From NCBI RefSeq assembly GCF_030691135.1, contig NZ_JAUYFA010000015.1:1-59164 (forward strand): a DNA stretch of 59,164 nt, written 5' to 3'. This document shows positions 6,135 to 51,233 of the stretch, piece after piece. The first letter of the stretch is position 1. Every line of letters starts with the position of its first letter. A program made the translations under genes and the position numbers. The notes under the pieces were generated by a model. It did not search any database and was not told where the DNA came from. It saw nothing but the letters and a program-made list of their open reading frames with translations. This DNA comes from Phreatobacter sp. GTDB lineage: Bacteria > Pseudomonadota > Alphaproteobacteria > Rhizobiales > Phreatobacteraceae.

Positions 6135-6208
6135 GGGGTGTCCGGGGGCAAAATCGTGCCATCCGAGGCGGCACGCCGGGACCATCGGCCAATTGCGGGC
6201 GGTCAGCC

Positions 6209-6222
6209 TTGACCTGCCTCAA
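6209..6222 (-). promoter_or_regulatory. Degenerate FNR-like box upstream of fixG
   Basis: The site reads TTGAC-CTGC-CTCAA, with one change in each half-site compared with TTGAT-N4-ATCAA. It is centred about 81 bases upstream of the fixG start, a normal distance for an activator site at -41.5 with a 40-base leader. It would give fixGHIS its own low-oxygen promoter apart from the ccoN one. Weak by sequence, supported by position. Confidence 0.4.
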
Positions 6223-6300
6223 CAGCGGCCCCGAAAAGACGACGGTGCGCGCCGCTGCCACGGCGCGCACCCCCCCATTCCGCGCTCGGTTGAGGCGGGC

Positions 6301-7176
6301 TTACTGCCCGCCGCCCAGCGCGTGGACATAGACGGCGAGAGCCTTCACCGTCGTTTCGTCGAGACGGGTGGTCCAGCCGGGCATGACGCCGCCGCGGCCG
6401 AGGGTGATCGTCTCGATGATGGTCTTCTCGTCGGAGCCGTAGACCCAGTTTCGGCCCGTCAGGTTGGGAGCGCCCAGGTCGCGATTGCCGCGGCCATCCT
6501 CGCCATGGCAGGCGGAGCAGTTGGCGATGAAGAGTTCCTTCCCCTTGGCGAGATCGGCGCCCGGACGGGTGGTTTGCCCGGACATCGAGAGGACGTAGTT
6601 GGCGACGGTGACGATCTCGTCGGTCTTCAGCACGCCGTTCGGCCCGCCGAGCGGCGGCATGTTGCCCTGACGAGCGCGGTCGTCGCCGTTGCGGATGCCA
6701 TAAGCGATGGTCTGGTGGATGTCCTGGATGCCGCCGCCCCAGAGCCAGGAATCGTCGCGCAGGTTCGGGAAGCCGCGCGAACCGGCGGCCCCGAGGCCGT
6801 GGCAGGGCGCGCAGTTGTCGCCGAAGGCCGCCTTGCCCTGGGCGAGGGCGAAGGTCAGCAGGGTCGGGTTTTTCGTGATGTCCTCCAGCGGCGTGCTGGC
6901 CAGCGCCGTGGAGCGCTCGGCCCGCAGGGCCTTCAAGGCGTCGAGGTCACGCACGACCTCCTGCCGTGAGGAATAGCCGAAGGCACCCTTGGTGTAGTTC
7001 GTGACCAGCGGCCAGGCGGGATAGACCACCCAGTAGCCGATCGACCAGACGATGGTGGCGTAGAAGATGTAGAGCCACCATTTCGGCAGGGGCGAATTCA
7101 GCTCCTTGATGCCGTCCCATTCATGACCGGTCGTGGTGCGGCCGGTGGCCGGGTCGATTTCGGGTTGAACGGCCAT
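6301..7176 (-). CDS. ccoP: cbb3-type cytochrome c oxidase subunit III, di-haem cytochrome c
   Basis: The protein has 291 residues. One membrane helix (about residues 33-55) anchors two cytochrome c domains with haem-binding motifs C122-x-x-C125-H126 and C220-x-x-C223-H224. Likely Met ligands lie in NMPPLGG and VMPGW. The subunit carries electrons from the bc1 complex or soluble cytochromes to CcoO and CcoN. It starts 4 bases after ccoQ and is the last gene of ccoNOQP. The N-terminal IDPATGRTTTGHEWDGIKELN stretch (positions 7-27) is the usual CcoP signature. Confidence 0.97.
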   Translation of the reverse strand: MAVQPEIDPATGRTTTGHEWDGIKELNSPLPKWWLYIFYATIVWSIGYWVVYPAWPLVTNYTKGAFGYSSRQEVVRDLDALKALRAERSTALASTPLEDITKNPTLLTFALAQGKAAFGDNCAPCHGLGAAGSRGFPNLRDDSWLWGGGIQDIHQTIAYGIRNGDDRARQGNMPPLGGPNGVLKTDEIVTVANYVLSMSGQTTRPGADLAKGKELFIANCSACHGEDGRGNRDLGAPNLTGRNWVYGSDEKTIIETITLGRGGVMPGWTTRLDETTVKALAVYVHALGGGQ

Positions 7177-36985: not shown

Positions 36986-38400
36986 GCACCTTTGCGGCCG
37001 AGAAGCGTGTTGAGGGCGAAGCCGAAGCCGGCGATCAGGAGGATGCCGGCGAGCAGGGTGAGGGCCCACTGGCGCTGGATGGGACCGTTGAACTCCATCT
37101 CGATCCCGTAATGGGCCAGCTGGTCCTCGCTGTGACGGTAGCGCACCGGCACCCCGGCCCTGACATTGCTGGCCCCAGCATGGCGGGTGCTGTTGATCAG
37201 CGCCCAGTTCACTTGGCCGGGATAGAACAGCGTGGCGTTGAGCGGCGGCTGCTGCCAGCCGGGCGTGTCACCTTAGAAGCGGGTGGCCTGGATGGTGGCA
37301 TCGCGTCCGAGCCCGAGGGTCACCGGCAGCGACACGTAGTGCCAGCGGCCGCCGGTCGCCTCGCGATGAATGGCGAAGGCGAGCTGGTAGAGGCCGCGCT
37401 CGACGAAGATCTTGTCGTCGCGCGGATTGCCCGTATCCATGCGACGGCTGAGCGTCACCTCCCAGAAGCCGTCGGTCCAGCGCGCCCGGCCACTGACCGC
37501 GATGTCGGCCCGCGATCCCTGGCTCGTCCGCAGGATGCGCCGCGGGATGGTATCGCCGTCGCGCCACGCGAGAGCGGGATCGAAGGGCACCGCCTCGTCC
37601 TCGCGCAGGGCGTAGACGTCGTCCTGCCCGATCCGGCCCTGGACGATGGCGTCGAAGTTGAGTGCCGAGCGCTCGACCCGGGCCGGATTGAACATGAGCC
37701 GCGGCTGTCGCTTGGCGGAATCCCAATTGGTGGTGTACGCGCCGCGGCCGGCGTCGCTCAGCCTGCCTGCCGCCACCATCTGGTCGTCGGCCACGCCCAT
37801 CGGGTTCGAACGATTGGCGCGCCAGTGCCAGAGATCGAGAAAGTAGCCTGCCGAGATCAGCGCCTGCTGCTCGGCCTCAGGCAGGGTCGAGGCCCAGTCG
37901 TTGATGTTCGAGCGGGTCCCCGGAAGGTATTTGGTGCCCTCGTCGAGCCCAAGCCGCTGGCCGAGATAGGGATGCGCTTGCACCTCGCGGCCGGGCACTT
38001 CATTGGCGGTTCCGGCAAGCCGGTGGCCGATCGCGACATAGCCTCCATACCGGCCGAATTCCGGCACGCGGCCATCATCGACCATCATCGCGACGCGGTC
38101 CTCATGCAGCCCGTCGGGCTGGGGACCGGCAACGGTGGCACCGCGCACGACCCAGGCCTTGCCGTCATACCGTAGCACGTCGTGGAAGATGCCCGGGCGG
38201 GGCGATGGCCAGCGATAGCGGAAGAAGATGGTGGTGCCGTTGTAGGCCGCCTGCACCTGCAGGGGCACGGTCAGCGCCTGCGGAATGGAGATATGGCGCG
38301 CGGGGTCGTTGTGCACGACGCCCCTGCCGTGGGTGAGCCAGGACACGCCGAGGACTCCTATGAACAGGGCCACTGCGGCATAGATCGCTGTTCGTCTCAT
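36982..38400 (-). pseudogene. Ethylbenzene dehydrogenase-like haem-binding protein, interrupted by an in-frame TAA
   Basis: From the ATG at 38400 (GGGGAG upstream) the frame encodes 375 residues with an N-terminal membrane anchor and an EB_dh-type haem-binding domain (ISIPQALTVPLQVQAAYNG; VNNRALIN-type repeats are absent). It meets a TAA at 37273-37275. The same frame then continues without a start or ribosome binding site for 96 codons: GDTPGWQQPPLNATLFYPGQ, HAGASNVRAGVPVRYRHSE and a C-terminal membrane helix, ending in TGA at 36982. FYPGQ-W and HAGA-VR-G are natural downstream parts of this family. So this is one gene of about 472 codons split by a nonsense codon, or a read-through or sequencing case. 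A GTG at 37210-37212 could only restart a 76-residue tail. Confidence 0.75.
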
Positions 38401-39117
38401 GTCTCTCTCCCCGCAGCATGCGCCAGTGACGCAGCCGTTGTTCTCATCGTTGGTCAGCGGCAAGTATTCGGCCGGCCATATCGCCCGCGAGGGGCACTAC
38501 AACGATCGCGAATGCCAAGCGCCGATCAGGCTCGCGGGCGCCTTTCACAGGAGTTCCGGAGGCCAATTGGCTCAGTCCGGCCGGAAAGCATCCGACACGA
38601 CGCCCTTCTGCGCCGGAACACGAGATTTTGGCAGTCACTCAATGTGAATTGCACAATTGATCCTGAGCACCTGTCTCCCACTGATGTGGATCAAGCTGCT
38701 CTCTCCACCCCGGTGCTCGGCGCCAATGCCGGCTTGACCGGCGTGAGCCGCGCCAATCGCGATGGAAGGCCTGCTGGCTCAAGAGCCGCGGAGGTCACAG
38801 TCGGGGTCAGCGACCCACAACATCGGTCCTGGGCCTTGCCCGTCGGGTTGTGACGGGGTGAGATGGAGGAGGCCGCAAGCCAGCCGCTGTGGAGACAGCC
38901 CAGAATGTCCGTTTCCGGGCGGCGCTCCGATGACCGCAATGCGGGCGCGAAGCGGACGTATCACGTTGAGCGTGCCAAGCTCGGCACAAATGCGGCCCGT
39001 CGGCAATGAGATCGACCTATGCAGGCTTCCGAAAGTCAGAGCAGGTACTCGCCGTGTTACCCCGGTGTTACCCTGAGGGCCGTCGATCTGCTGCAAAATC
39101 CCGTAAGTCTTTGAAAA
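38401..39117. other. Gene-free interval between the haem-protein gene and the island
   Basis: No frame on either strand in these 717 bases has a credible product or ribosome binding site. The stretch includes a near-consensus FNR box at 38681-38694 and ends at the left attachment repeat. Its patchy base composition suggests old decayed sequence. Confidence 0.6.
38681..38694. promoter_or_regulatory. Near-consensus FNR box in the gene-free interval
   Basis: The site is CTGAT-GTGG-ATCAA, one mismatch from TTGAT-N4-ATCAA. It lies 281 bases upstream of the haem-protein ATG on the minus strand, rather far for a direct promoter, so it may be a chance match or serve a long leader. Confidence 0.3.
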
Positions 39118-39168
39118 AAATGGCGCGCCCGAAAGGATTCGAACCTCTGACCCCCAGATTCGTAGTCT
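39118..39168. repeat. Left attachment repeat (partial tRNA-Arg copy)
   Basis: These 51 bases are identical to 51154-51204. They contain the 3' 48 bases of tRNA-Arg (CCA end to anticodon loop) on the minus strand. After 39168 the sequence departs from tRNA, so this copy is not a functional gene. Confidence 0.93.
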
Positions 39169-39262
39169 TGCTAAACTAGTTGCGGCGCATTGCGTAACGT
39201 TGACATATCAGCGATTTAAGTCCATTGGTCTTTCGCCTAGATGCTTGTGAATGGGGCGCTTG

Positions 39263-39282
39263 TGGTAGCTAAATGGTAGCTA
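39263..39282. repeat. TGGTAGCT arm-site repeats at the left end
   Basis: TGGTAGCT occurs at 39263 and 39274. The 15-base string GCTAAATGGTAGCTA at 39268-39282 recurs at 51086-51100 near the right end. Their place beside the integrase gene fits arm-type binding sites of a tyrosine integrase. Confidence 0.65.
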
Positions 39283-39305
39283 TCCCAGATCAGAGGGCGA
39301 AGGCA

Positions 39306-40544
39306 ATGCCGACCGTGAAGCTGACGAAATCCGCTGTCGACGATCTGCCGACCGGTGGCGTTCTTTGGGATCAAGCCGTGCGCGGCTTCGGCGTCAGGCG
39401 GCAATCGCGCGATCCGGTCTTCGTGTTGAAGGCCCGCGTGAACGGCCGTCAGCGCTTCCTCACTATCGGTCGGCACGGTTCGCCTTGGACCGTGGACACA
39501 GCCCGGAACGAGGCCAAGCGTCTGCTTGGCGAAATTGCTGGCGGCCGTGATCCGGCTGAACGACGCGCTGACGAAAAGAGCGCTCCGACCGTTGGTCAGC
39601 TTGCCGACGATTTTTTGAAGGAGCACGCCACCGCCAAGCGGAAGGCCTCGACGGCGGACTACTACAGGATGATTGTCGAGACGCACATCAAGCCGGCGTT
39701 CGGCCACCTGAAGGCCAACGCTCTGACTTCGGCTGAAGTCGAGAAATGGCACGCGGGCGCGAAGCGGAAGCCGACCGCCAACCGAGTGGTAGCGGTCCTG
39801 TCGAGCATCTATTCATGGGCTGCGAAGACGAAGCGTCTCCCCGATGGGCCAAACCCGGCGCGCCCGGTCGAGCGGTATCGAGAGGAAGCCCGCGAGCGCT
39901 ACCTGACGTCTGACGAACTCGCGCGCTTGGGCGACGCCATCCGTGAAGCCGAGACGGTCGGCACCCCATGGAATGTGCGCGAGACGACGAAGGCGAAGGC
40001 CACAGCCAAGCATCTGCCCAGGGAGGGCAATCAGCGGACGAAGATCGCGCCTGCCGCAGCCGCCGCGCTGCGGCTCTTGATCCTGACCGGCGCACGGCTT
40101 CGCGAAATCCTGCATCTCGAATGGCGACATGTCGATCTGGAGCGCGGCATTCTGTTCCTGCCGGACTCCAAGACCGGCCGAAAGGCGCTGGTGTTGAACG
40201 GGGCGGCCGTCCAGCTTCTGACCGACCTTCCGCGCCTTGGCCGCTATGTGATCGCGGGCGCGAGCGTCGGGACAGAAGATGAGCAACCGCGATCCGACCT
40301 GAAGCGGCCATGGGCGCTTGTGGCAACGCGGGCGAGGCTGGAGAACGTTCGGCTTCACGATCTGCGACACACCTTCGCGTCGGTCGCGGCGGCCGCGAAC
40401 ATCGGGCTCCCGGTCATCGGCAAGCTGCTTGGTCATTCGCAGACAAGCACGACCGAACGCTATGCGCATCTCGCGGTCGACCCGGTGCGGGCCGCCACAG
40501 ATCTCGTCGGGCAGAAGCTCGCGGCGGCGATTGGTGGACGCTGA
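39306..40544 (+). CDS. Tyrosine-type integrase of the island
   Basis: The product is 412 residues from the ATG at 39306 with GAAGG just upstream; the earlier start at 39273 would overlap the arm repeats. It has a DUF4102-like N-terminal arm-binding domain (TKSAVDDLPTGG, WDQAVRGFGVR), a SAM-like core-binding domain and the catalytic domain. Catalytic residues are visible as Arg in TGARLREIL, His-x-x-Arg in LHDLRHTFAS, His in LLGHSQTSTTERYAHL and Tyr in the same string. It would catalyse recombination between the 51-base repeats. Its stop overlaps the next gene's ATG. Confidence 0.95.
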   Translation: MPTVKLTKSAVDDLPTGGVLWDQAVRGFGVRRQSRDPVFVLKARVNGRQRFLTIGRHGSPWTVDTARNEAKRLLGEIAGGRDPAERRADEKSAPTVGQLADDFLKEHATAKRKASTADYYRMIVETHIKPAFGHLKANALTSAEVEKWHAGAKRKPTANRVVAVLSSIYSWAAKTKRLPDGPNPARPVERYREEARERYLTSDELARLGDAIREAETVGTPWNVRETTKAKATAKHLPREGNQRTKIAPAAAAALRLLILTGARLREILHLEWRHVDLERGILFLPDSKTGRKALVLNGAAVQLLTDLPRLGRYVIAGASVGTEDEQPRSDLKRPWALVATRARLENVRLHDLRHTFASVAAAANIGLPVIGKLLGHSQTSTTERYAHLAVDPVRAATDLVGQKLAAAIGGR

Positions 40545-41236
40545 TGGTGGGTGTGCCGCCCTTCACGCTGGAGCAGCGCGCAAAGGCCACATGCGCCTTC
40601 GCAGACGCAATCATGGTCGAGATAAGCACCCTGCCGCCGATCACGAATGAACAGCTTGACCGAATGCTGCGGATCGCTGCTGCTGTGATCGAAGCTGGCC
40701 GCGTGGATGGTGCCAGCCCGGATGATCTAATCCCGCACTTCGCAATGGTGTTCGCATTGGTGCGATATCGGCCGAATGAGAGATCTGGCAGGCGTGGCCG
40801 GCCTCCAAAGGAATCTCGGGGCTGGTTCGCACTGACCGTGGCCGGTGAAGAAACATGGACGACGCGCGAGCGGCGCTTCATGGCCCGGCTCAATCGACAA
40901 CGTAACGCTGGTGATCGCGGTCCGCTTCCGCAATCGACCTTCGATATGTCCGTTTATGACGCCGAGGGTCTGTTGCAGATGCTCGGCTACATGAGCGCCA
41001 AAGGCACCGGGAAGCAGACTGCGGCCTATGCGGCAACGGAGAAACCATTTCGCTCGCACGGCCGGGATGGCGGCGAACACCCACCCGAAGTCAGGCGGCT
41101 GGTCGACGCTTTCAACCGCTTCAGCCTGCGTGGGTTTTCTGAAGACCTGCCAAAAATGCTGCTGCATCGGCTTATCGCCGCCGCGCTCGATACCGGCGAC
41201 ATGGACGAAGCCCGCGCGCTTGCGGCGAAGCTCTAG
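40544..41236 (+). CDS. Hypothetical protein coupled to the integrase
   Basis: The product is 230 residues and is not recognised. The ATG shares a base with the integrase stop (TGATG), so it is translated with the integrase. It has a helical N-terminal third, a basic linker (RSGRRGRPPKESRG, AT-hook-like GRP), and a C-terminal helical segment. No membrane segment or signal is present. Coupling to an integrase and the basic linker suggest a DNA-binding accessory role, which is only an inference. An apparent frame extending back to 40310 lies within the integrase and is discounted. Confidence 0.75.
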   Translation: MVGVPPFTLEQRAKATCAFADAIMVEISTLPPITNEQLDRMLRIAAAVIEAGRVDGASPDDLIPHFAMVFALVRYRPNERSGRRGRPPKESRGWFALTVAGEETWTTRERRFMARLNRQRNAGDRGPLPQSTFDMSVYDAEGLLQMLGYMSAKGTGKQTAAYAATEKPFRSHGRDGGEHPPEVRRLVDAFNRFSLRGFSEDLPKMLLHRLIAAALDTGDMDEARALAAKL

Positions 41237-41385
41237 CTGCTCCACTGTTTGCTATTATCGAAAAACAAACAGCCGCCCCGGCGAGCCAGAGATGGCCGGG
41301 ATGGCTTAAGCGGCGAGGTGTGAAGGTCTGACCGCCAGTCACGCGGGCGCCGCTGGAAGACCGGCCCCGCGATCTTTGGGCAGTG

Positions 41386-42075
41386 CTACCGGCCGGGCCG
41401 GAAGCCGAGCCGCTTCGCCTCGCTCGCGGCCATGAGGATCGTGTCGGCGCTCATAATCGCGACGTTGAAGCTGGCGTCCAGCGCCGGGGACTTGTCCGCC
41501 AGATATTCGAGATAGGCCACCCCGAGCTTCAGGTTGTCGCGCCCGCCGGGCATCCGGTGGAACAGCTCGCGGACTTCGACCAAGTGCCGGTCAACGGCCG
41601 CGTCGCCAGCCTTCAGAGCGTCGGTGATCCGCTTGTCCTGCGTAATGCCTTGCACCGCAGATTGGACGAGCCGGGCGTCTAGGCCGGCGGCGCTGGCGAC
41701 TTGGCCGAATGCGTCGCGCTCGGCTTGGTCCGCAAACACGTCCGACCGGAGGGCCGTGTACTCGGCCGGCGGGGTCTGGCCGGCAGGCGGCGCGTCATTC
41801 GCGTTCGGGTCCATGCGCTTCGCCGTGGCCTCCCCGTCCAAGGCGGATTGTGCCTGGCGCTGGCGCGCATCGTCCGCGCCGCGCCCGCCAAGTGCGTCCC
41901 AGCCCGAGCCGCCGGTCTCGATCTCGCGGTTGACAGCTTCCGCGAGCCTGATGCGCTGGTCATGGGTGATGCCGGGCGCGTTGCCGCGCCGGGCAAGCTC
42001 CTGCATCGCGCCGAGGCTATCGGCGGAGGGGCCGGCCGGCGCGCCGCCATTGGTCGGGATCGGGGCTTCGCTCAT
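41386..42075 (-). CDS. Hypothetical protein, last gene of the five-gene island operon
   Basis: The product is 229 residues and is not recognised. It has a Pro/Gly/Ala-rich N-terminal half and a helical C-terminal half ending AEKRLGFRPGR-like (ASEAKRLGFRPGR). The look is that of a scaffold or minor structural protein, but no family could be named. The ATG overlaps the stop of the gene before it by 4 bases. The stop is 149 bases from the convergent integrase-coupled gene. Confidence 0.75.
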   Translation of the reverse strand: MSEAPIPTNGGAPAGPSADSLGAMQELARRGNAPGITHDQRIRLAEAVNREIETGGSGWDALGGRGADDARQRQAQSALDGEATAKRMDPNANDAPPAGQTPPAEYTALRSDVFADQAERDAFGQVASAAGLDARLVQSAVQGITQDKRITDALKAGDAAVDRHLVEVRELFHRMPGGRDNLKLGVAYLEYLADKSPALDASFNVAIMSADTILMAASEAKRLGFRPGR

Positions 42076-42488
42076 GTCGTGACGGTCCTGTGATTGCTGG
42101 CGAGGAAGGACAGGGCGTTGATTTGCGGCGACGGCTTCATCCGGGCGGGCGCGACGCCTTCGCAGCGGAAGGCGATGCGCTTGGTCCCGTCCTGAAGAAT
42201 GGCGAAGCGCGTGGCGGGCATGTCGGGACGGAGCACGATCAAGGCCACATCCGGCGGAAGCTTCACCTGAAGCGGGGCCATGTCCGCCCCGTGCTTGATC
42301 TGTCGAAGGTTGGCGTAGAGCCGGCCTTCCGGCGCTGGCGCGACCGATACGGCTTCTTCGTCGTCGTTCAGGTGGAGATGGCCATGGCCGGACAAGGCCA
42401 ACGCTTCGCCGGCCGCAAGCGCCAGTTCGAAAGCCGCGCCGGGGCGGGCGTGTTCCGCTGCATAGAGTGCGGCTTCGGCGGGCGTCAT
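42072..42488 (-). CDS. Hypothetical protein, fourth gene of the island operon
   Basis: The product is 138 residues and is not recognised. It starts with a short helical part (MTPAEAALYAAEHARPG) and continues as a probable beta-rich domain (SGHGHLHLNDDEEAVSV, DVALIVLRPDMPATRF). Both ends overlap neighbours by 4 bases (ATGA), which means tight translational coupling. The start at 42488 is fixed by that overlap. Confidence 0.78.
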   Translation of the reverse strand: MTPAEAALYAAEHARPGAAFELALAAGEALALSGHGHLHLNDDEEAVSVAPAPEGRLYANLRQIKHGADMAPLQVKLPPDVALIVLRPDMPATRFAILQDGTKRIAFRCEGVAPARMKPSPQINALSFLASNHRTVTT

Positions 42489-42925
42489 CGGCTTGCGCCC
42501 CAATCGTGCTTGTCGAGGGGCGACGTGTTCGGCCACGCCAGCTTGAGCTTGCGCCGGTCGATGGTGTCGACGGTCAGTCGTTCGGCATTGAGCGGGCGTG
42601 GGATCACGAGCACGGCGTCCATGGGAAGCTGCTTGCGCGCGATCCGGTCGACCGCTTCGCCGGTGTCGCGATCGGCGGTCGCGCCGGGGCGAAGCAGCGT
42701 CACCACGAGGTTGCGCCGGGGCGGCGGGTTCACGGTCCAGCCATGCGGAGTTTCCTCGACCTTCAGCGCGCCGCCGGCCGTGATTGTCATCTGGTCGCCC
42801 TGGCTGATGGCCAGCGTCGCGGCCGTGGCATCGGACGCTAAAGCATCCAGCACGGCGAAGGCGTTATCCGGCGCGCCGCTGGCGAGCGAACCTGAAGGCG
42901 CATTGTCGAAGCGGTGGAAGCCCAT
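42485..42925 (-). CDS. Hypothetical protein, third gene of the island operon
   Basis: The product is 146 residues and is not recognised. It has an Ala-rich start and a beta-rich middle (DQMTITAGGALKVEE, RRNLVVTLLRPGAT) with no signal peptide or membrane helix. It ends in an ATGA overlap with the next gene and lies 13 bases after the preceding one. Confidence 0.78.
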   Translation of the reverse strand: MGFHRFDNAPSGSLASGAPDNAFAVLDALASDATAATLAISQGDQMTITAGGALKVEETPHGWTVNPPPRRNLVVTLLRPGATADRDTGEAVDRIARKQLPMDAVLVIPRPLNAERLTVDTIDRRKLKLAWPNTSPLDKHDWGASR

Positions 42926-42938
42926 AACGGCTCATCCT

Positions 42939-43238
42939 TCAGGGTAGCTTGATGAAGACGCGCGACCCGGCCGCGAGGGCATCGCGGTAGACCGCGCCGG
43001 ACGCGATCAGGTGGCCATTGTTGAGCGGGTTGGTGATGTTGTGGCCGGGCCGCAGAATGGCCACGCGCATCGCGCCAGCGTTGGCGGTGATCTCGATTTG
43101 CGCGCCGCCTGATGGGATGGCCGCCGTTACGGCCGGAACCTCAACCCATGCGGCGGTTTCAGTCGGGGTCTGCGACGTGAGCACTGTCCCGGCCGCACTG
43201 GCGGGTCCAGTCGATTGCAGCAAGCGAACTTGGCTCAT
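42939..43238 (-). CDS. Hypothetical protein, second gene of the island operon
   Basis: The product is 99 residues and is not recognised. It is Ala/Thr/Gly-rich and probably all-beta (AAWVEVPAVTAAIPSGG, MRVAILRPGHNITNPLNN), compatible with a small beta-sandwich. It lies 5 bases after the coiled-coil gene stop. The sequence type would suit a small virion or decoration protein, but this is speculation. Confidence 0.75.
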   Translation of the reverse strand: MSQVRLLQSTGPASAAGTVLTSQTPTETAAWVEVPAVTAAIPSGGAQIEITANAGAMRVAILRPGHNITNPLNNGHLIASGAVYRDALAAGSRVFIKLP

Positions 43239-43243
43239 TGGGT

Positions 43244-43912
43244 TCAATCCTCCCATTCGGTCGGCTTGGGGGGCGTTACGGCGGCCTTGGCGGCGTCCGT
43301 CACGGGCAGGCCGAAGCGCTCAACGAGGGCGGCCAAGGTCTGCCGGTAGTCGGACGGCTCGAACAGCGGCCGGGCGACGACGCCCGTCTTGGCGAGCAGC
43401 CAGGTCGCGGTCGCCTTCAGGGACTGTTCCCCGAGCAGGTCGTGACCGAAGACCTGATTGCGCAGATCGGCGGGCGTCGCGACCGAGGCGTTGACGATGG
43501 CCTGCTTCAGCGCGGCGAGATTTTCAGCAAAGGCGGCTGCGGCTTCGTCCGCCTTGCTCGCGGCGACTGTAGCGTCTGCCAATGCCTTCGCCGCTGCCTT
43601 CAGGCGCTGCGCTTCGACCGCGATCCGCTTGGCCTCATCCAGCTTCGCAGCATCGGCTTCCACGGTCGCCAGTGCGGACCGCACGGCAGCTAACTCAGCT
43701 TCGAGCCGGACCACGATCCCTGTGGCCTGATCCTTCGTCGCAAGGTTCGCCTTGGACGCTTCAAGGGTCGCGGCGGCGATGGCCCGGTTTCGGTTCGCGG
43801 TGGCGTCCGCCATCTCGCGAGCAAGCTTATCGATCTGCCCTTGCAGGGCGGCTTGCTGCATAGCCAGCGTGTGCCGGCTGTCTTCGGGACGGGTTTTGGC
43901 GGCGGCGCTCAT
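43244..43912 (-). CDS. Predicted coiled-coil protein, first gene of the island operon
   Basis: The product is 222 residues from the ATG at 43912, which has GGAGGG 8 bases upstream. About residues 15-150 form a long Ala/Lys/Glu/Asp-rich heptad-like coiled coil (LEAELAAVRSALATVEADAAKL). A C-terminal region of about 60 residues (FGHDLLGEQSLKATATWLLAKTG) looks globular. No known family. It opens the operon; nested inverted repeats lie 60-110 bases upstream. Confidence 0.78.
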   Translation of the reverse strand: MSAAAKTRPEDSRHTLAMQQAALQGQIDKLAREMADATANRNRAIAAATLEASKANLATKDQATGIVVRLEAELAAVRSALATVEADAAKLDEAKRIAVEAQRLKAAAKALADATVAASKADEAAAAFAENLAALKQAIVNASVATPADLRNQVFGHDLLGEQSLKATATWLLAKTGVVARPLFEPSDYRQTLAALVERFGLPVTDAAKAAVTPPKPTEWED

Positions 43913-44752
43913 GTTGATGACCCTCCAGCTGGTCATCAATTTACTCCAACATTTCAGTCTATCCAAACGGTAAAACGTCTATTTACTGCATATAATTCTA
44001 TGCGTCTGCGTAGACGTTATTAGATGTTGCTAGAAGATGTGAGGCTGCGACATAAGATCAGCGCTTCGGTTGATGGCGTTTTGGCGGATGGCCATGGGCT
44101 TGAGGCGAGCGGCTGATGCGCCTGGTTTGACAGGGGCGGACAGGTCGCCGGTTCGGGGTGCGCCGGATGGCGAAGGCTGGGGCGCTGGTTCGGCTGGGCC
44201 GCGCGAAAAGCAAGGCGGAAAGCTTCACCGGAATCGAAAATCGACCCCGGTATGTGAACGAAGACCCGCGCTGCGCTGATGGCGACGCCGTGGGGAGGGC
44301 CGGGTGCCTGTCGCGCGCATTGGCGGCGGGCGGTTCTCGCACCACTATCGGGCGGGCTTCGGCGGAGGCTGGCGACGTGACGCGACGGCGAGCCTGCCGA
44401 AGCCCATCCGCGAGCGCGGCGATGGCTGAAGCAGGCCAGCGCCAGCCCGGCGGCATGGCGGTTGACGGGGCTAGGACGCGCCGTGGCGGGCGCAACCGTG
44501 GCAGGCTGTTCCACTTACCGATCGAATGCCATGCGCCCGCCACGCGCCGCTCCTGCGAAGCTGGCGAGCGATGGGGCAAGCGGGCGGATAGCCATGGCTG
44601 GAACGAAAGCGCGGCGATCAAATGGTTCGTTATGGGTGTGCTTCGAACGAACTGGCATCACACCCGGCGCAATCGGTTCGATATGGCCGACTTGACAATT
44701 CAAAACGAACCGATAAAAAGCGAACTATTCTAATCGTACTGAGAGGTTCGCC
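43913..44752. other. Long non-coding interval between the five-gene operon and the recombinase
   Basis: Frames on both strands here are Arg/Ala/Pro-rich, lack ribosome binding sites and show no recognisable motif. I call no gene. The interval contains nested inverted repeats at its left end and the GTTCG array at its right end, so at least parts are regulatory. Confidence 0.6.
43974..44018. promoter_or_regulatory. Nested inverted repeats upstream of the five-gene operon
   Basis: Outer arms AACGTCTA (43974-43981) and TAGACGTT (44011-44018) pair perfectly across 29 bases. Inside them GCATA and TATGC (43988-44003) pair across 6 bases. The core is AT-rich and lies 60-110 bases upstream of the first gene on the minus strand. 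A regulator-binding promoter region is the simplest reading. Confidence 0.5.
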
Positions 44753-44763
44753 ATGTTCGTTCG
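44624..44763. repeat. Dense GTTCG/CGAAC array in front of the serine recombinase
   Basis: Nine copies of GTTCG or its complement CGAAC begin at 44625, 44644, 44648, 44676 (within GGTTCG), 44706, 44721, 44746, 44755 and 44759, reaching into the first codons of the recombinase. A 12-base string GGTTCGNTATGG is repeated at 44624 and 44675. A possible -35 TTGACA lies at 44692. The set looks like binding sites (operator or res-like site) of the recombinase. Confidence 0.6.
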
Positions 44764-45379
44764 CGCCTATCTCCGCGCCTCCACCGATGAGCAGGACGCC
44801 AGCCGGGCGCGAGCCGACCTTGACCGCTTCGCATCCGAGCGCGGCTTGGCCGTCGCGGCGTGGTACGTCGAGAACGAAAGTGGCGCGAAACTGAAGCGCC
44901 CCGAACTGTTCCGGCTACTTTCGGACGCCAAGCCCGGCGACGTGCTCTTGATCGAACAGGTGGACCGGCTGTCGCGTCTGAACGCGGCGGATTGGGAGCG
45001 GCTGAAGCGCGAGCTACGCGAACGTCAAGTGCGCGTGGTGGCGCTGGACCTGCCGACCTCTTGGATGATGGCCGGCAAGGATCATGACGCCTTCACGGCG
45101 CGCATGTTCGACGCCATCAACGGCATGATGCTGGACATGCTCGCGGCCGTGGCGCGCAAGGACTACGAAGACCGCAGACGGCGGCAATCGCAGGGCATCG
45201 CCAAGGCCAAGGCGAACGGCTCCTATCGCGGCCGGAAGGAAGACGCCGACCGCAACGCGGGCATCATGGCCATGCTGAAGCGTGGCGTGCCGTGGTCGCA
45301 GATCGTGGCGTCAACCGGCGCGTCGCGGTCGACACTGGCGCGGCTGGCGAAGCGCGCCGTGACGTCAGCCGCTCGGTGA
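44753..45379 (+). CDS. Serine recombinase, resolvase/invertase family
   Basis: The product is 208 residues. The N-terminal catalytic domain has the nucleophile S10 in YLRASTDEQDA, with LIEQVDRLSRLNAADWERL and GMMLDMLAAVARKDYEDRRRRQSQGIAKAKANG (long helix E, about residues 115-150). A C-terminal HTH (VPWSQIVASTGASRSTLARL) completes a full-length resolvase. Catalytic Arg residues around DRLSR are present. It may act on the GTTCG array upstream, either to resolve or to regulate. It is the second recombinase on the island. Confidence 0.93.
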   Translation: MFVRAYLRASTDEQDASRARADLDRFASERGLAVAAWYVENESGAKLKRPELFRLLSDAKPGDVLLIEQVDRLSRLNAADWERLKRELRERQVRVVALDLPTSWMMAGKDHDAFTARMFDAINGMMLDMLAAVARKDYEDRRRRQSQGIAKAKANGSYRGRKEDADRNAGIMAMLKRGVPWSQIVASTGASRSTLARLAKRAVTSAAR

Positions 45380-45455
45380 CGATAGCGAAAATCGTTGCAT
45401 GAACGCGACGCGACGGAACGATTTACGCTTTTTTCGCTTATTACGGATATTACAC

Positions 45456-45484
45456 TTGTGACGCTTGTCGGTGCGGTTTATATG
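45456..45484 (+). promoter_or_regulatory. Sigma70-like promoter of the toxin-antitoxin genes
   Basis: TTGTGA (45456-45461) and TATATG (45479-45484) are separated by 17 bases and lie 35 bases upstream of the antitoxin ATG. GAGGGAG follows as the ribosome binding site. Confidence 0.55.
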
Positions 45485-45519
45485 CGGTGCAACGAAGCAC
45501 AAAAAGAGGGAGACAGAAT

Positions 45520-45975
45520 ATGGCGAACTCAGCCCTTGCAGCCGATCTCACTCATCGGCTTCCGACACGCGAAGAAATCGAGAGCGCCGCTGAAGCAGCG
45601 ACGGCGCTTGCTCAAGCTAGGGAAGGCGATGGCCGGCTTGTCATCGCCAGCGCGGACGGTCGCGAGCTCCGCCTTGCGCCGGCCATCAGCGACATTCTAG
45701 TTGACCTATTGGGCCATGTGGCGCGCGGCGACATGGTGACGCTTGTTCCTACGAGTGCGATGCTGACGACACAGCAGGCGGCCGACATTCTGAACGTTTC
45801 GCGACCCTACCTCAGCAGTTTGTTGAAGAAGGGCGACATTCCGTTCATCCCGGTCGGCTCGCACCGTCGTGTCATGCATGCGGACTTGGTGGCCTACAAG
45901 GAACGGCGCGACGCAGTACGAAACGCTGCACTCGATGAGCTGGCGCGCCTCGGACAGGAGTTCGACGCGAGTTGA
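45520..45975 (+). CDS. Excisionase-type HTH protein, probable antitoxin
   Basis: The product is 151 residues. The N-terminal half is a short alpha/beta region (LRLAPAISDILVDLLGHV), and the C-terminal half is a MerR-like HTH_17 domain (TTQQAADILNVSRPYLSSLLKKGDI). It ends in a TTGA overlap with the PIN-domain gene. This order and overlap are typical of a toxin-antitoxin pair in which the first protein represses its own promoter. GAGGGAG precedes the ATG. Confidence 0.82.
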   Translation: MANSALAADLTHRLPTREEIESAAEAATALAQAREGDGRLVIASADGRELRLAPAISDILVDLLGHVARGDMVTLVPTSAMLTTQQAADILNVSRPYLSSLLKKGDIPFIPVGSHRRVMHADLVAYKERRDAVRNAALDELARLGQEFDAS

Positions 45976-46550
45976 AGCATATCGCCGATCGCTTTGTTGT
46001 CTTTCTGGATGCGAACGTCCTGTTTCCCTTCAGGAAACGGGACGTTCTCTTGCGCTTCTGCCAAGCCGGTCTGTTTCGCGCTCGTTGGATCCCAGAGATA
46101 CTAGACGAGTGGACGCGAAACCTTTTAGCGGAGAAGCCGCAATTGGCAGCAAGCATTCAGTCGCAGCTTGAGGCAATGCAGCGCGCTTTTCCAGAAGCGT
46201 GCGTGACTGGCTATGAGCCTCTAGTTGAAGGGCTAAAACTCCCCGATGCTAACGATCGGCACGTTCTAGCAGCCGCGATCCGCTGCGGCGCTCAACACAT
46301 CATCACTGAGAACCTGAAAGACTTCCCGGACGACGTGCTAAGCGAATTCGCGGTTGAAGCCATAGACGCCGATGAATTTCTTTCCCGAACGTTCGACCTC
46401 TATCCGGCGGCAGCGCTCGAAGCGTTGAAGACGATGCGCCAGACCTATCAAACCCCGCCCTTCACACAGTCTGAGTTCGTCTTCGATCTGACAGCCAAAG
46501 GAATGCCGAAGCTCGCCTCGCGCCTTCGGCCGGCGCGTTCGCTTCTGTGA
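45972..46550 (+). CDS. PIN-domain ribonuclease, probable toxin
   Basis: The product is 192 residues from a TTG start that overlaps the antitoxin stop. Acidic PIN residues are visible: D13 in VVFLDANVLFP, Glu/Asp in ILDEWTRNL, Asp in LPDANDRHVLAAAI and the last motif IITENLKDFP. It is expected to cut RNA when not held by the HTH protein. The pair probably stabilises the island. No SD can be seen apart from coupling to the preceding gene. Confidence 0.85.
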   Translation: MKHIADRFVVFLDANVLFPFRKRDVLLRFCQAGLFRARWIPEILDEWTRNLLAEKPQLAASIQSQLEAMQRAFPEACVTGYEPLVEGLKLPDANDRHVLAAAIRCGAQHIITENLKDFPDDVLSEFAVEAIDADEFLSRTFDLYPAAALEALKTMRQTYQTPPFTQSEFVFDLTAKGMPKLASRLRPARSLL

Positions 46551-46559
46551 GCGCGCCGC

Positions 46560-46964
46560 TTACTCTGTTGCCAAATCACTCGCTTCGACAGCTCTCCAAT
46601 AGGCAAGCCGCGCATCGCGTTCCTCCAGCGCATACCGACGCGCTGCAATGAAAACCATCTTCTCGAATTCGGCCAGCTGTCCGACCTCGCGTTCGTCGAA
46701 CTCGGCAAGCTGCACGTCGGTGGGCCATACATACATCAATTGCTTCAGCGTCGGCCGCAGAATGGTTCCCGACAGATAGCCCCGCCGATTTTTCAGATAC
46801 TCGGCGCGCGCTTTCTCTTTGTCAGCGTCGTAGCGATCCAGCGCCGCATTGATCGCTTGTGCATATGCCAGCCAGGCAGAATTCCGAACCTCTGATGTGC
46901 GATCGTCAAATTGCGGATCGTGAAGCAATGAACAGGTCGCATCGAACAGGGACAATGGAGGCAT
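46560..46964 (-). CDS. Hypothetical protein
   Basis: The product is 134 residues, rich in charged and aromatic residues and mostly helical (AYAQAINAALDRYDADKEKARAEYLKN, positions 33-59). No family recognised, no signal or membrane helix. The start lacks a clear ribosome binding site. It converges on the PIN gene with 9 bases between stops. Codon use is like the adjacent toxin-antitoxin genes, which supports it being real. Confidence 0.6.
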   Translation of the reverse strand: MPPLSLFDATCSLLHDPQFDDRTSEVRNSAWLAYAQAINAALDRYDADKEKARAEYLKNRRGYLSGTILRPTLKQLMYVWPTDVQLAEFDEREVGQLAEFEKMVFIAARRYALEERDARLAYWRAVEASDLATE

Positions 46965-47627
46965 GCCGGTAACCGCGTTGTTTCGGGATCGGGCCGAAGG
47001 CTAAGTCGATTCTCGATTGAGTGGGATAAGCGCCGCATCTGCTATCCCACGCTTTAGCCGTGCGTCGTGGCAAATTTCTCCGCTCCAGCCGTTCCGGAAA
47101 GGCGCACGGTGGGAAGGCCGGGCCGACGAAGGGCTATCACAGTTCGCGCCAGGAGATGGATCGGCGGGGGCGCTGAAGCTCACGCCGGGCGCGGATCGCG
47201 CATCAGACCGTCGGCCATCTTCGGTTGAGAAAACCGCCTTTGCGCATTGTGCCCGAAGGCCCCTCCCAATTCGATCAATCCGACCGAACCGCCATCGCGC
47301 TCGCGCGCGAGGGCTATCAACCCGCGACCCGTGATCAAGCGTCCCGTCCGAGCGCCGACGCGCTGATACGCCATCGGTCAAGCTTCCTTCACGGCCATGG
47401 GGTTCGGCGACTACCCACCGGCGAAATCCTGATGATCCTGATACGCGCACACGGACACAAAACCATTTGTACGCTTTCTCTCCTTATCTGCCTTTCACTC
47501 CCGGCATCCGCTCACGCCCGCGTATCAGGATCATCAGAACGCAGCGCCGAAGACGTTCATGGCCGCCCATGCAGAGGCCCGCCCGGCATGGCCGGATGGG
47601 GCGCCAAGCGTGAAGCTTCCTTGCCTG
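46965..47627. other. Gene-free interval with a large inverted repeat
   Basis: Frames across these 663 bases are Arg/Ser-rich without motifs or ribosome binding sites, so none is called. The main structure is the 19-base inverted repeat at 47429-47537, downstream of the primase-polymerase gene. Confidence 0.55.
47429..47537. repeat. Perfect 19-base inverted repeat flanking 71 bases
   Basis: Arms at 47429-47447 (CTGATGATCCTGATACGCG) and 47519-47537 are exact reverse complements. The 71-base centre is pyrimidine-rich on the plus strand. It could be a replication or transfer structure, a termination structure for the primase operon, or a minimal mobile repeat; sequence alone does not decide. Confidence 0.75.
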
Positions 47628-50012
47628 CTAGTCCTTTGCGCGGCGCGGGCCGTTCATCAGCCGTGCCAGTTCCTGCTTGCGCCGTTCCTCATCCTCGCGG
47701 CGCTTGGCGAACTGGACCGCAACGGCCGCGCTCACGCGCCACGCGCGGTTTTCCGGCCCGGCCGCTTCCGGCTCCAGCCATCCGCCCGCGACCAACGGTC
47801 CAAGCGCGCGGCCGATGTCGAAGGTGGAGAGCCCGCGAAGGCACGCGACGTTCGCCATGGCTTCGCCGGCCGTGAAGCGCCCGCCGTTGCGGGTAAGAAC
47901 CCATGAACCGATCTTGCGCAGCCGGTCGGTTCCCGCAACGTGCTCCGCGAAGCCGTAGAACTCGAAAGCGTGCGGCATGATGAAGTCTGCGAACAGGCGT
48001 TCGACGCGCGCCGCCGTCTCGGCAGGCACGCGGTCCGCCATCCAGCCATCGGGCTCAAGCCCGTCCGCGACGTGGAAAAGCAGTGCGAAGGTGCCGAACA
48101 GCCCGTCGAGCTTCCCGACGAATTGGGCGAACCCCGGCAACGCCGTCTCTGCCGCCCCTTGTAGGTCATGCGTTCGCTGGCGGAACCGCTCCATGACCGC
48201 TAGCGCCTTGTTATCGAAGGTGAACTCCATTGGCGCGACCGACGCCGCTTGCTCCACCATGGCCGCGAAGCCGTCCGGCGGCACGGGCCGGTCATCGGCC
48301 ACTCGTCCTGGCCCGACGAAAACCGGAACGAAGCGCTGCAACAGGCCGTCCGATTGGAGCCCCTGAAGCTCGGCAAGCCGGTCCGGCTGAATGCCGCCGA
48401 TGATCGAAACCGACAGGTTCGCGACGCTGATGGTTCCGCGCCCCACGCGGTCCACCATGAAGGGCGATCCGTTGAACGCCTCCAGCCAGAACGCCCGATC
48501 CGCCATGGACGCGCGCCCGCTGGCGTATTTCTCCATGCCGCCGATCCAGCCGGCGATTTCATCCCGCTTCACCAAGACGCCGCGATCCTGCCGCGCAAGG
48601 ATCGCCGCGAGCGCCTCGCTTGTCGTGTCGCCAGCGATGAAGCGTTCCGGTTCAGGCGGCTTCGGTTGGCCGTCCGGGACGCGGGCGCACTCGGCTTCCC
48701 ACGCCCGGCGGCGGCGCGCCTGAAGATGCTCCAGCGGCGCGAGCGCCGCGTTGATGATCGGCGTCTTCTTGCTGGACGGCGGCCCCGCCAAGAGCGTCCA
48801 GAGGCGCGGGCTCCCGCGCCAGCCGCCGTGCCGCATCAGGCGGAGCGACATGCGATGGTCGACCGCGCCGGACAGCGCCGCGAGCGCCGCCATGGCGAGC
48901 GCGTTGGTGCACGCGCCCATGACGCGGCCTTGCCCGATCGCGAACCGCTCAATTGTCGGCGGCAAGATACCGGCCGGAACGTCCGGCACGATGAAGTCAC
49001 GCCACGGATCGAATAGGGGCGCGGGCTGCGGCGTATCAACCGTCACCGTGTCGCCGAAGCCGGCCGCGAGCGCTTCCATCGACTTCACGGCGGGCGGGTT
49101 TTGGCCATAGGTGAAGGCATTGGCGACCTTGGCGGCAAGCCCGGCGTCATCCCAAGGCGGGGAGCATCGCGCGTTCCAGTGCTCGCGCATGAGGTCCAGC
49201 GCGGTCGGTTCCGTCAGTCCCATGTCGCGCAGCACACACGCCACCTTGTAGGTGGCCGCGTCGCCACCTTGCCCTTCGACGGCCGGCGGTGCGTTCGCGA
49301 GCCAATCGCGGGCGCGGGCCAGATCGGCGGGCGCGTCCTGTTCGGCGGCCGGCGGCGCGTCGCTGCGCTCGCGCGGCTGGCCGCATCGCAGGATCAGGCT
49401 TTCCGGGGCGACGGCGGCGGGCAGATTGGCCGCGATCTCATAGGGGCCGGCATAGCCCTTCTTGCCGCCGGGGTCTGCAAAGTATGAGCCTGGGCCGACG
49501 ACGTAGCCCCCGCCCGAACGGATATCGACGCCCGGCGCGATCCGGTCGACCGATTGCGCTACGTCCGGCCCGGTAAGATACAGGTGCAACCCGCCACCGG
49601 GCGTCTTGACGGTGAATGTCTCGGGTAAGCCAAGCGTCTTCAGTGCCTCAAGACCTCCCTTCGCCGCGTCCACGTCTACCACTATCAGGCCAGCGCCTGC
49701 CGCGACGCCGTAGTTCATCGCCGGATCGGCTGCGAACCAAGCGCGGATCGTTGCAGCATCAGTTGTGGCGCGCGTGACGCCAGCGACGCCCTTGGGCGGC
49801 TCCTTTGATCCGGGCAGGAGCGGAAAGACCCGGAAGCCGTGAGCCGCCATTTCGAGCGCCAGCGCAAGCCGTCTAGTCGTATCGTCGGCGCGGTCGTTGC
49901 GAGGGGCGATCCCCGATGGGGCTTCATCCCATAGGCTCGCGTCCTGATAGCCGGCAGCGACGCCTAGCGCGCTTTCGGGAAAGACCCGATCAAGGAAGTT
50001 CTCAGCAGCCAT
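47628..50012 (-). CDS. Primase-polymerase with DUF3987 helicase-like domain
   Basis: The product is 794 residues from the ATG at 50012 (AAGG 8 bases upstream). A bifunctional DNA primase/polymerase domain spans about residues 45-215 with GFRVFPLLPGSKEPPKG, the metal-binding DVD at 113-115 and TPGGGLHLYL. A DUF3987 domain fills about 350-760, with a P-loop-like GPPSSKKTPIINAAL near 405 and KRDEIAGWIGGMEKY. Proteins of this build initiate replication of satellites and plasmids. A longer frame to 50231 overlaps small upstream genes and is discounted. It is the last gene of a coupled minus-strand unit led by an HTH gene. Confidence 0.9.
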   Translation of the reverse strand: MAAENFLDRVFPESALGVAAGYQDASLWDEAPSGIAPRNDRADDTTRRLALALEMAAHGFRVFPLLPGSKEPPKGVAGVTRATTDAATIRAWFAADPAMNYGVAAGAGLIVVDVDAAKGGLEALKTLGLPETFTVKTPGGGLHLYLTGPDVAQSVDRIAPGVDIRSGGGYVVGPGSYFADPGGKKGYAGPYEIAANLPAAVAPESLILRCGQPRERSDAPPAAEQDAPADLARARDWLANAPPAVEGQGGDAATYKVACVLRDMGLTEPTALDLMREHWNARCSPPWDDAGLAAKVANAFTYGQNPPAVKSMEALAAGFGDTVTVDTPQPAPLFDPWRDFIVPDVPAGILPPTIERFAIGQGRVMGACTNALAMAALAALSGAVDHRMSLRLMRHGGWRGSPRLWTLLAGPPSSKKTPIINAALAPLEHLQARRRRAWEAECARVPDGQPKPPEPERFIAGDTTSEALAAILARQDRGVLVKRDEIAGWIGGMEKYASGRASMADRAFWLEAFNGSPFMVDRVGRGTISVANLSVSIIGGIQPDRLAELQGLQSDGLLQRFVPVFVGPGRVADDRPVPPDGFAAMVEQAASVAPMEFTFDNKALAVMERFRQRTHDLQGAAETALPGFAQFVGKLDGLFGTFALLFHVADGLEPDGWMADRVPAETAARVERLFADFIMPHAFEFYGFAEHVAGTDRLRKIGSWVLTRNGGRFTAGEAMANVACLRGLSTFDIGRALGPLVAGGWLEPEAAGPENRAWRVSAAVAVQFAKRREDEERRKQELARLMNGPRRAKD

Positions 50013-50241
50013 GACGACCGCCTTTGCGGCCAGCGGCGACTTGCGAGGCTGACGGCGGGCCGGTCGGTCGATGGGCAGGGGCGACAACGGATCCGGCTGG
50101 CGCATCTTCGGGAGTGGTCGACGCGGCTGGCGGCCGGGTGGTGCCGGGCTCACTGACGACGACCTGAAGCTCGCCGAGCAGGGGGTCGTGGATGACTGTG
50201 ACAATCGACTTGCCGTTGAACTGGCGTGCATGGTTCGGCAT
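50002..50241 (-). CDS. Small hypothetical protein upstream of the primase
   Basis: The product is 79 residues starting MPNHARQFNGKSIVTVIHDP, with a short beta-like start and a Pro/Ala-rich, basic tail. The ATG at 50241 has AGGAG 8 bases upstream. Its 3' end overlaps the primase start by 11 bases, so the two are coupled. No family recognised. Confidence 0.65.
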   Translation of the reverse strand: MPNHARQFNGKSIVTVIHDPLLGELQVVVSEPGTTRPPAASTTPEDAPAGSVVAPAHRPTGPPSASQVAAGRKGGRHGC

Positions 50242-50317
50242 GTTGAGGGCTCCTAGGGCGTGACCTGCCAGTCGCGCCGGTGTGATTGAAAATGTCTGTG
50301 AGAGTCGCGGCCTCGCC

Positions 50318-50542
50318 TTACCCGGCGGGGCCGTCGTCATCTTCGTCCGCCACGCCATGAACCGGCCGCGCCCCGAACCGGAGCAACGCTTCATCCGATG
50401 CTGCGTAGAGCGCTTCGCCCGGAGCGACAGGACGGCCGCCGCCAGAGACTGGCGCAACCCATATGCGCCGGTAGCGCTTCCCGCCCGCACGCCATACGAC
50501 AGCCCAAAGCCGCCCGGTCAGGTGTTCAAGCTTCCGGGCCAT
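50318..50542 (-). CDS. Small hypothetical protein
   Basis: The product is 74 residues, with a basic beta-rich core (LWAVVWRAGGKRYRRIWV) and an acidic end. It overlaps the preceding small gene by 17 bases. Not recognised. Support is operon position and a start inside the upstream gene. Confidence 0.55.
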   Translation of the reverse strand: MARKLEHLTGRLWAVVWRAGGKRYRRIWVAPVSGGGRPVAPGEALYAASDEALLRFGARPVHGVADEDDDGPAG

Positions 50543-50714
50543 CGTTGGTCTGTTCGGGTTCTGGATCGCCTTTAGGCCGCGCGTCCTTAGGTTCGGCCGG
50601 CGGCGAAACTGGCGCGAGCAACACAGAAGGCCAGTCCGGTCGGGTGTCACGAACGGCTGCAAGCCTTTGCAACGCGACCGCTTGCATGATGGTCGGCTTA
50701 GGCGGCGTGCGCAT
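50526..50714 (-). CDS. Small hypothetical protein overlapping the HTH gene
   Basis: The product is 62 residues starting MRTPPKPTIMQAVALQRLAA, with a Pro-rich, charged tail. GGAAGG lies 7 bases before the ATG at 50714, inside the end of the HTH gene. Not recognised. It is one of three small frames between the HTH and primase genes. Confidence 0.55.
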   Translation of the reverse strand: MRTPPKPTIMQAVALQRLAAVRDTRPDWPSVLLAPVSPPAEPKDARPKGDPEPEQTNDGPEA

Positions 50715-50940
50715 CGGCCGCCTTCCGGGCGGCTTCGGCCGTGTTCGAGGAAGTGCGGGCAGCAAGCCAGCGTTCGATAGCGTCGACTTCGTAAAGTACA
50801 ATCGTGCTGGACGGCTTCGTGAACGGCGGGCCGTCACCACGGCAGCGCCATTGGGCGAGTGCGGATTCGGAAATGCCGTAGCGCTCGGCCACGGCGCTCG
50901 GCCGCAAGTATCTCGGATTGGACGAAATTGACATGGGCAT
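50698..50940 (-). CDS. AlpA-like/excisionase-type HTH protein
   Basis: The product is 80 residues from the ATG at 50940 with GGAG about 8 bases upstream. An HTH_17 domain covers most of it (YLRPSAVAERYGISESALAQW, positions 10-30; VLYEVDAIERWLA). Such proteins serve as directionality factors for integrases and as activators in P4-like elements (AlpA). It opens the replication unit and is 150 bases from the right arm-type repeats, which fits a double role in excision and replication control. Confidence 0.78.
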   Translation of the reverse strand: MPMSISSNPRYLRPSAVAERYGISESALAQWRCRGDGPPFTKPSSTIVLYEVDAIERWLAARTSSNTAEAARKAADAHAA

Positions 50941-51085
50941 GGGGCAGTTCTCCGGCTTGCCGCGTGTTCCGCGGTGAAGCCGTAGCTTGCACGCATCTGC
51001 GTCGAGCAGAGAGGACGGGGGTTTTGTTCGGAAATTCACCCGCTGACGATGCACGGCGCTGCCGGGCGCTGACAATCCGGCGGTT

Positions 51086-51114
51086 GCTAAATGGTAGCTA
51101 GCCGTCAGCTACCA
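51086..51114. repeat. TGGTAGCT arm-site inverted pair at the right end
   Basis: GCTAAATGGTAGCTA (51086-51100) repeats the left-end string at 39268. TGGTAGCT (51092-51099) and AGCTACCA (51107-51114) form an inverted pair across 7 bases. This fits integrase arm binding at the right end. Confidence 0.65.
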
Positions 51115-51153
51115 AACCAAGTCGCCGTTATAAGTCATTGTTTTTGAAGGGTT

Positions 51154-51204
51154 AAATGGCGCGCCCGAAAGGATTCGAACCTCTGACCCCCAGATTCGTA
51201 GTCT
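51154..51204. repeat. Right attachment repeat, inside tRNA-Arg
   Basis: These 51 bases are identical to 39118-39168. The repeat covers the tRNA from its 3' CCA to the anticodon loop, so integration leaves the tRNA intact on this side. Confidence 0.93.
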
Positions 51205-51233
51205 GGTGCTCTATCCAGCTGAGCTACGGGCGC
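51157..51233 (-). tRNA. tRNA-Arg (anticodon ACG)
   Basis: The minus strand folds as a full cloverleaf of 77 bases including encoded CCA. The acceptor stem is GCGCCCG with CGGGCGC, the D arm is GCTCAGCTGGATAGAGC, the anticodon loop is CTACGAA with a CAGA/TCTG stem, and the T loop is GTTCGAATCC. It is the integration site of the island. Confidence 0.96.

Follow-up and report, generated by a model that had tools for sequence, protein, structure and literature searches.

A rare unit of five coupled genes (P1 to P5), none of which could be assigned to a family, is carried by a 12-kb element at a tRNA-Arg gene of a Phreatobacter genome and is kept intact in three loci. Tentatively, and at somewhat less than an even chance, we read this operon by analogy as the helper-exploitation module of a tRNA-Arg-integrated, phage-satellite-type element that may act on phage assembly or packaging. 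As an orphan that persists while defence genes swap beside it, the operon offers a small, testable candidate for a capsid-remodelling-type module in Hyphomicrobiales.

The window, meaning the whole 59,164-nucleotide stretch of DNA that was analysed, is contig C69, one of 116 in a draft genome of 4.2 Mb. The operon was found at three loci: the window, L008 (a contig of genome G009, a second Phreatobacter MAG of the same genus, read further as L010) and L009 (a Hyphomicrobiales MAG locus). The island in the window runs from 39118 to 51204 between identical 51-bp repeats (12,036 bases repeat to repeat) and holds the following features:

39118..39168, left 51-bp direct repeat (att)
39273..40544, plus strand, tyrosine integrase
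40544..41236, plus strand, 230-aa gene starting at the integrase stop (TGATG)
42075-41386, minus strand, P5, 229 aa, ATG start, all-helical in the model
42488-42072, minus strand, P4, 138 aa, ATG start, probable paralogue of P3, C terminus different in L009
42925-42485, minus strand, P3, 146 aa, ATG start, probable paralogue of P4
43238-42939, minus strand, P2, 99 aa, ATG start, weak similarity to P3
43912-43244, minus strand, P1, 222 aa, ATG start, predicted coiled coil plus C-terminal part, no family
43913..44601, minus strand, conserved P1 leader with RBS hairpin (43915-43940 region) and palindrome (43987-44004)
44753..45379, plus strand, serine recombinase (Resolvase), divergent from the operon
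45487..46964, variable slot with HTH_17 gene, overlapping PIN_3 gene and 134-aa gene
47168..47404, conserved patch closing the slot
47628..50231, minus strand, Prim-Pol/DUF3987 primase-helicase (Prim-Pol, E 1.9e-32; DUF3987, E 7.5e-48)
50698..51075, minus strand, AlpA-like/excisionase-type HTH ORF (phrog_66, E 2e-10), true start probably internal
51154..51204, right 51-bp direct repeat, 3' part of the intact tRNA-Arg gene
51157..51233, minus strand, tRNA-Arg (acg)

The element is read as satellite-type because an integrase, an AlpA-like gene and a Prim-Pol primase-helicase lie inside 51-bp repeats at a tRNA gene. It has the PICI traits of an attachment site with an integrase (51-bp repeats at the tRNA-Arg 3' part, tyrosine integrase) and of an AlpA-type regulator with a primase/replication gene (phrog_66, Prim-Pol, DUF3987). 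Capsid, portal and terminase families were absent from the 10 window proteins scanned (9 in the island), and comparison of the leader and the patch with phage records gave no evidence of a cos or pac packaging site. Two copies of the 51-bp sequence were present in 3/12 Phreatobacter genomes and one copy in 8/12; none was seen in G007, whose contig begins beyond the tRNA. Directly left of the island, at 37273-38463, lies a gene for an EB_dh protein (ethylbenzene-dehydrogenase-type domain, E 1.9e-50).

The first-pass annotation had described five coupled minus-strand genes at 41386-43912, and the same coordinates, gaps and overlaps were found again: from P1 to P5, gaps of 5 and 13 bases are followed by two 4-base overlaps. 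The corresponding spacing is 5, 13, 4 and 4 in L008 and 3, 13, 4 and 4 in L009. Ratios of dN/dS were 0.10 to 0.38 in all 15 pairwise comparisons among the three loci (the highest, for P2 between the window and L008, being based on just 3 + 3 changes), so P1 to P5 are coding and not chance frames; they are real genes under purifying selection. Gene order and overlaps were retained in 3/3 loci, which together with the purifying selection argues that the genes move as a unit, as the earlier proposal that they travel together had it, and supports their grouping as one island-borne operon.

The unit is rare. L008 and L009 came out of a search of 84,980 species genomes with peptide patterns, a method limited to close relatives, and G009 is the window's closest operon-bearing relative. 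The P5 profile (E<=0.001) matched 4 of 397 order genomes and the P2 and P3 profiles (E<=0.01) matched 11 of 297 each; in every case two matches were true, the window and G009. With P1, two of 385 class genomes were matched and the source genome itself was the one credible member. P3 was present in 2/12 Phreatobacter genomes searched. Twenty-one weak profile matches elsewhere were rejected as operon relatives, 14 on low score, and 7 were picked for inspection; of these, L007, L064, L065 and L066 fall in long genes identified by eye as an FAD oxidoreductase, a beta-propeller (twice) and a topoisomerase subunit, the others being L006, L011 and L055 (the genes in L011 and L055 not nameable). More distant relatives of the integrase (46-54% identity) had no such operon nearby in 8/8 stretches, some of them no longer than 5-6 kb; the operon therefore characterises this lineage and not the integrase clade. 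The serine recombinase occurred at E<=1e-30 in 16 of 249 order genomes, source genome included; it was rejected as an operon partner, since 19 recombinase stretches, covering 20/21 other recombinase places (some shortened by contig ends), had no P1-P5 match below E 0.13.

Island architecture differs among the loci. The L010 island occupies the same tRNA gene, has its 51-bp repeats at 6513 and 18853 and an integrase 97% identical to that of the window, and is inverted in its interior, window 41309-50923 corresponding to L010 8714-18678 and including operon, slot patch and primase, while the integrase keeps its place and the 118-bp tRNA-side arm (51036-51153) is in place at 97.5%. Inverted repeats at the inversion breakpoints were considered and rejected (no exact one of 11 bases or more). 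The L009 operon lies next to a different tRNA-Arg gene (ccg), on a contig that ends before any integrase. The N-terminal part of the primase is common to the window (47628-50231) and L008 (1705-3864); the second domain is DUF3987 in the former and AAA_25 in the latter, the DNA match ending at 49041. The serine recombinase is of the same type in the window and L009 and of a different type in L008 (6699-7613), and the DNA immediately upstream of it switches together with the type. A gene start at the integrase stop (TGATG) was seen in the window (40544-41236), L010 (7939-8628) and L088, a phage-type element (2175-2666); the products in the window and L010 were unrelated by BLASTP.

Beside the operon, from the recombinase to the patch at 47168-47404 (80% conserved in L010, partly in L009, and without a match in phage records), lies a slot whose content changes: HTH, PIN and 134-aa genes in the window, a SIR2 protein (4870-6642; PADLOC candidate family PDC-S65, E 1.8e-190) in L008, and 75 bases with no gene in L009. 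The HTH_17 gene overlaps the PIN_3 gene by 4 bases (45487-46550) in what looks like a toxin-antitoxin pair. The five genes had been proposed to be island cargo; that description did not hold, because the operon is constant in 3/3 loci while the adjoining slot changes content, and we infer from these three loci that it behaves as island backbone. The same constancy bears on a rather unlikely reading, that P1 to P5 form a stand-alone multi-subunit anti-phage defence system on the island, with P1 and P5 sensing or bridging and P2 to P4 serving as sensor or effector. Small coupled orphan genes adjoining a slot with a SIR2 defence candidate (L008) or an HTH+PIN pair (window) would suit such a system; against it, the operon is not exchanged as the slot is, PADLOC gave weak scores and no family match for P1 to P5 (best DpdK, E 0.022, P3; JetC, E 0.091, P1), and no nuclease, NADase, membrane or other effector domain was recognised in them.

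The first-pass annotation also noted a strong ribosome binding site on P1 and a structured region upstream, both of which were borne out. Upstream of P1, a stretch of ~690 bases can be aligned with L010 as far as 44601 and, in part, with L009, and small indels among the loci argue that this leader is not coding. Folding gave z -2.25 over 148 nt (5/200 shuffles fold as well) and z -3.22 over 588 nt (1/100). The GGAGG ends 9 bases before the ATG, with 4/5 of its bases in the loop of a 9-bp hairpin whose stem is identical in L008; in L009 the stem has 6 pairs and is no better than shuffles (93/200 fold as well). The palindrome at 43987-44004 is kept in 3/3 loci, a palindrome of that kind in the window being within chance (31/100 shuffles). 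Neither Rfam nor the phage records matched the upstream region, and a promoter/terminator scan found none. The leader is a possible operator or translational switch. A leader that is structured and conserved and bears an RBS hairpin, and the position of the operon as a constant part of the element adjoining replication and recombination genes, would be in keeping with an island maintenance or regulatory operon (replication, partition or conjugation accessory) that does not act on phages; we hold this to be improbable, as no DNA-binding or ATPase family was found in any of P1 to P5 and three beta-type proteins would be unusual for that role.

Profile comparisons indicate that P3 and P4 probably arose by an ancient duplication. 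The P4 profile scored P3 at 12-16 bits (shuffle maximum 8; 0/2000 shuffles reach the best score), and the P3 profile scored P4 of L009 at 19.6 bits (shuffle maximum 14.2; 0/2000) and the window's own P4 at 7.7 bits, within shuffle range. By hhalign, 78 columns were aligned (E 0.00025 for a single comparison; probability 43%). The similarity of P2 to P3, which 3/2000 and 27/2000 shuffles score as well, is suggestive only. A strand ending in LRPG or LRPD had been reported as shared by three of the proteins: the strings do occur in P2, P3 and P4 of the window and to that extent the observation stood, but as evidence of kinship the strand was rejected, since in L009 the P2 string is gone and that of P4 reads LRPL, and in the P3-P4 profile alignment the LRPD of P4 lies opposite PRPL of P3, not opposite its LRPG. 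The supported P3-P4 signal is the longer 78-column similarity, not this strand.

No family had been assignable to the five proteins in the first place, and searches of Pfam, PHROG, NCBIfam, PADLOC, PDB, phage, plasmid and IMG/VR data returned no convincing relative. Pfam, PHROGs, NCBIfam and PADLOC gave weak scores only, mostly to the P1 coiled coil (best E 0.022); tblastn of all five proteins against 50,697 phage records gave no match; and plasmid searches with P5 and P2, IMG/VR pattern scans with P1 to P5 and PDB sequence searches with P2, P3 and P5 profiles confirmed nothing convincing. Neither PHROGs nor the phage tblastn indicated capsid, portal, terminase, tail or scaffold homology. AlphaFold predicted nine strands for P3 (mean pLDDT 61; alignment of six rows of P3 and P4) and a helical P5 (mean pLDDT 51); fold searches with these weak models gave no match at E<=0.001 for P5, nor for P3 among viral and PDB structures (best 0.02 viral, 0.1 PDB), and neither model is strong enough for a fold to be assigned or for known folds to be excluded. 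These results bear on the suggestion that the operon builds a particle of its own, with P1 to P5 as the structural components of a small virus or nanocompartment that has gone unrecognised. A coiled coil with three beta-type proteins, two of them duplicated, on an element that brings its own genes for replication and integration would be compatible with it; the failure of the weak P3 model to match a fold, of the phage and IMG/VR searches to return a match, and of the protein scan to show a packaging ATPase make it very unlikely.

The helper-exploitation reading is proposed because, of the constant blocks, only the operon remains to account for how the element would take hold of a helper, and because of the analogy with the Psu/Sid operon of satellite P4 and the small-capsid proteins of a Pasteurella PICI. 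The element would exploit a helper phage by machinery encoded in the operon, P1 (coiled coil) and P5 (helical) acting as scaffold-like or bridging proteins, the duplicated beta-type P3 and P4, perhaps with P2, acting as small structural or decoration-type subunits, and all five jointly diverting the assembly or packaging of particles in favour of the small element; the satellite lifestyle, the helper dependence and the role of each protein are what we infer. The reading is favoured by a five-gene unit under purifying selection in 3/3 loci, by its persistence while the neighbouring slot exchanges content, by a P3-P4 duplication that parallels the Psu-Sid homology described in part of PMC8628076, by the lack of capsid, portal and terminase families in the scanned proteins, and by an integration niche that phage-type elements also use. 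It is weakened by the failure of P1 to P5 to resemble proteins known from satellites or phages, by the lack of packaging-site or helper evidence, by models too weak for a fold, by a sample of three loci and by the 8/8 integrase-relative stretches without the operon. A bolder version, which we think doubtful, is that P1 to P5 make up an undescribed five-protein helper-hijacking (or self-assembling) apparatus, arisen partly by duplication of a small beta-protein, which would define a rare alphaproteobacterial satellite lineage with an exchangeable defence slot.

That phage-type elements use the tRNA-Arg integration niche follows from two comparisons. In G005 (L104, contig C19), this tRNA-Arg is occupied by another, prophage-like element of ~11 kb that encodes a terminase large subunit and has a different integrase next to the tRNA. 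L088, with a related integrase, resembles the island in integrase clade (47% identity), in the TGATG gene after the integrase, in an AlpA-like gene and in having a coiled-coil protein, which in L088 lies upstream of a head protease; unlike the island, it encodes a head protease, a baseplate hub and a tape-measure protein. Its coiled-coil protein was rejected as a P1 homologue (no usable similarity). The source genome has a portal gene on a 4.3-kb contig and no match to PF05065, which is one capsid family only.

Gram-negative PICIs, as described in excerpts of PMC6092414, are like the island in size (~12 kb), in integrase, AlpA-like and primase genes, and in having no capsid, portal or terminase family (for the island, among the proteins scanned). 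They differ in that the operon matches no PICI gene described in those excerpts and that PICIs are further marked by induction dependent on a phage, by encapsidation in its particles and by interference, whereas the island is known from sequence alone; P1 to P5 match no family library searched, none of which is a PICI gene library. The same excerpts report that a Pasteurella PICI makes small capsids through proteins unlike any characterised one, and that its capsid-size genes could not be identified from sequence.

P4-like satellites, in the portions of PMC8628076 that cover them, are likewise small elements with an integrase, an AlpA-type regulator and a primase-helicase, an adjacent operon with duplicated phage-unlike genes and a defence-gene slot. 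There, Psu and Sid are mutually homologous, lie in an operon with delta and act on the helper capsid, and the capsid-remodelling proteins resemble no phage gene. Unlike that operon, the one described here showed no similarity to psu, sid, delta or epsilon in Pfam and PHROG scans, which covered P1 to P5 and the other scanned island proteins with libraries that may lack some satellite P4 genes. It also has five genes, three of them beta-type, with a serine recombinase beside it, and its host order is Hyphomicrobiales as against Enterobacterales; a limited literature search found no described counterpart in Hyphomicrobiales. We would liken the operon to psu-delta-sid of satellite P4 in its working, not in its membership.
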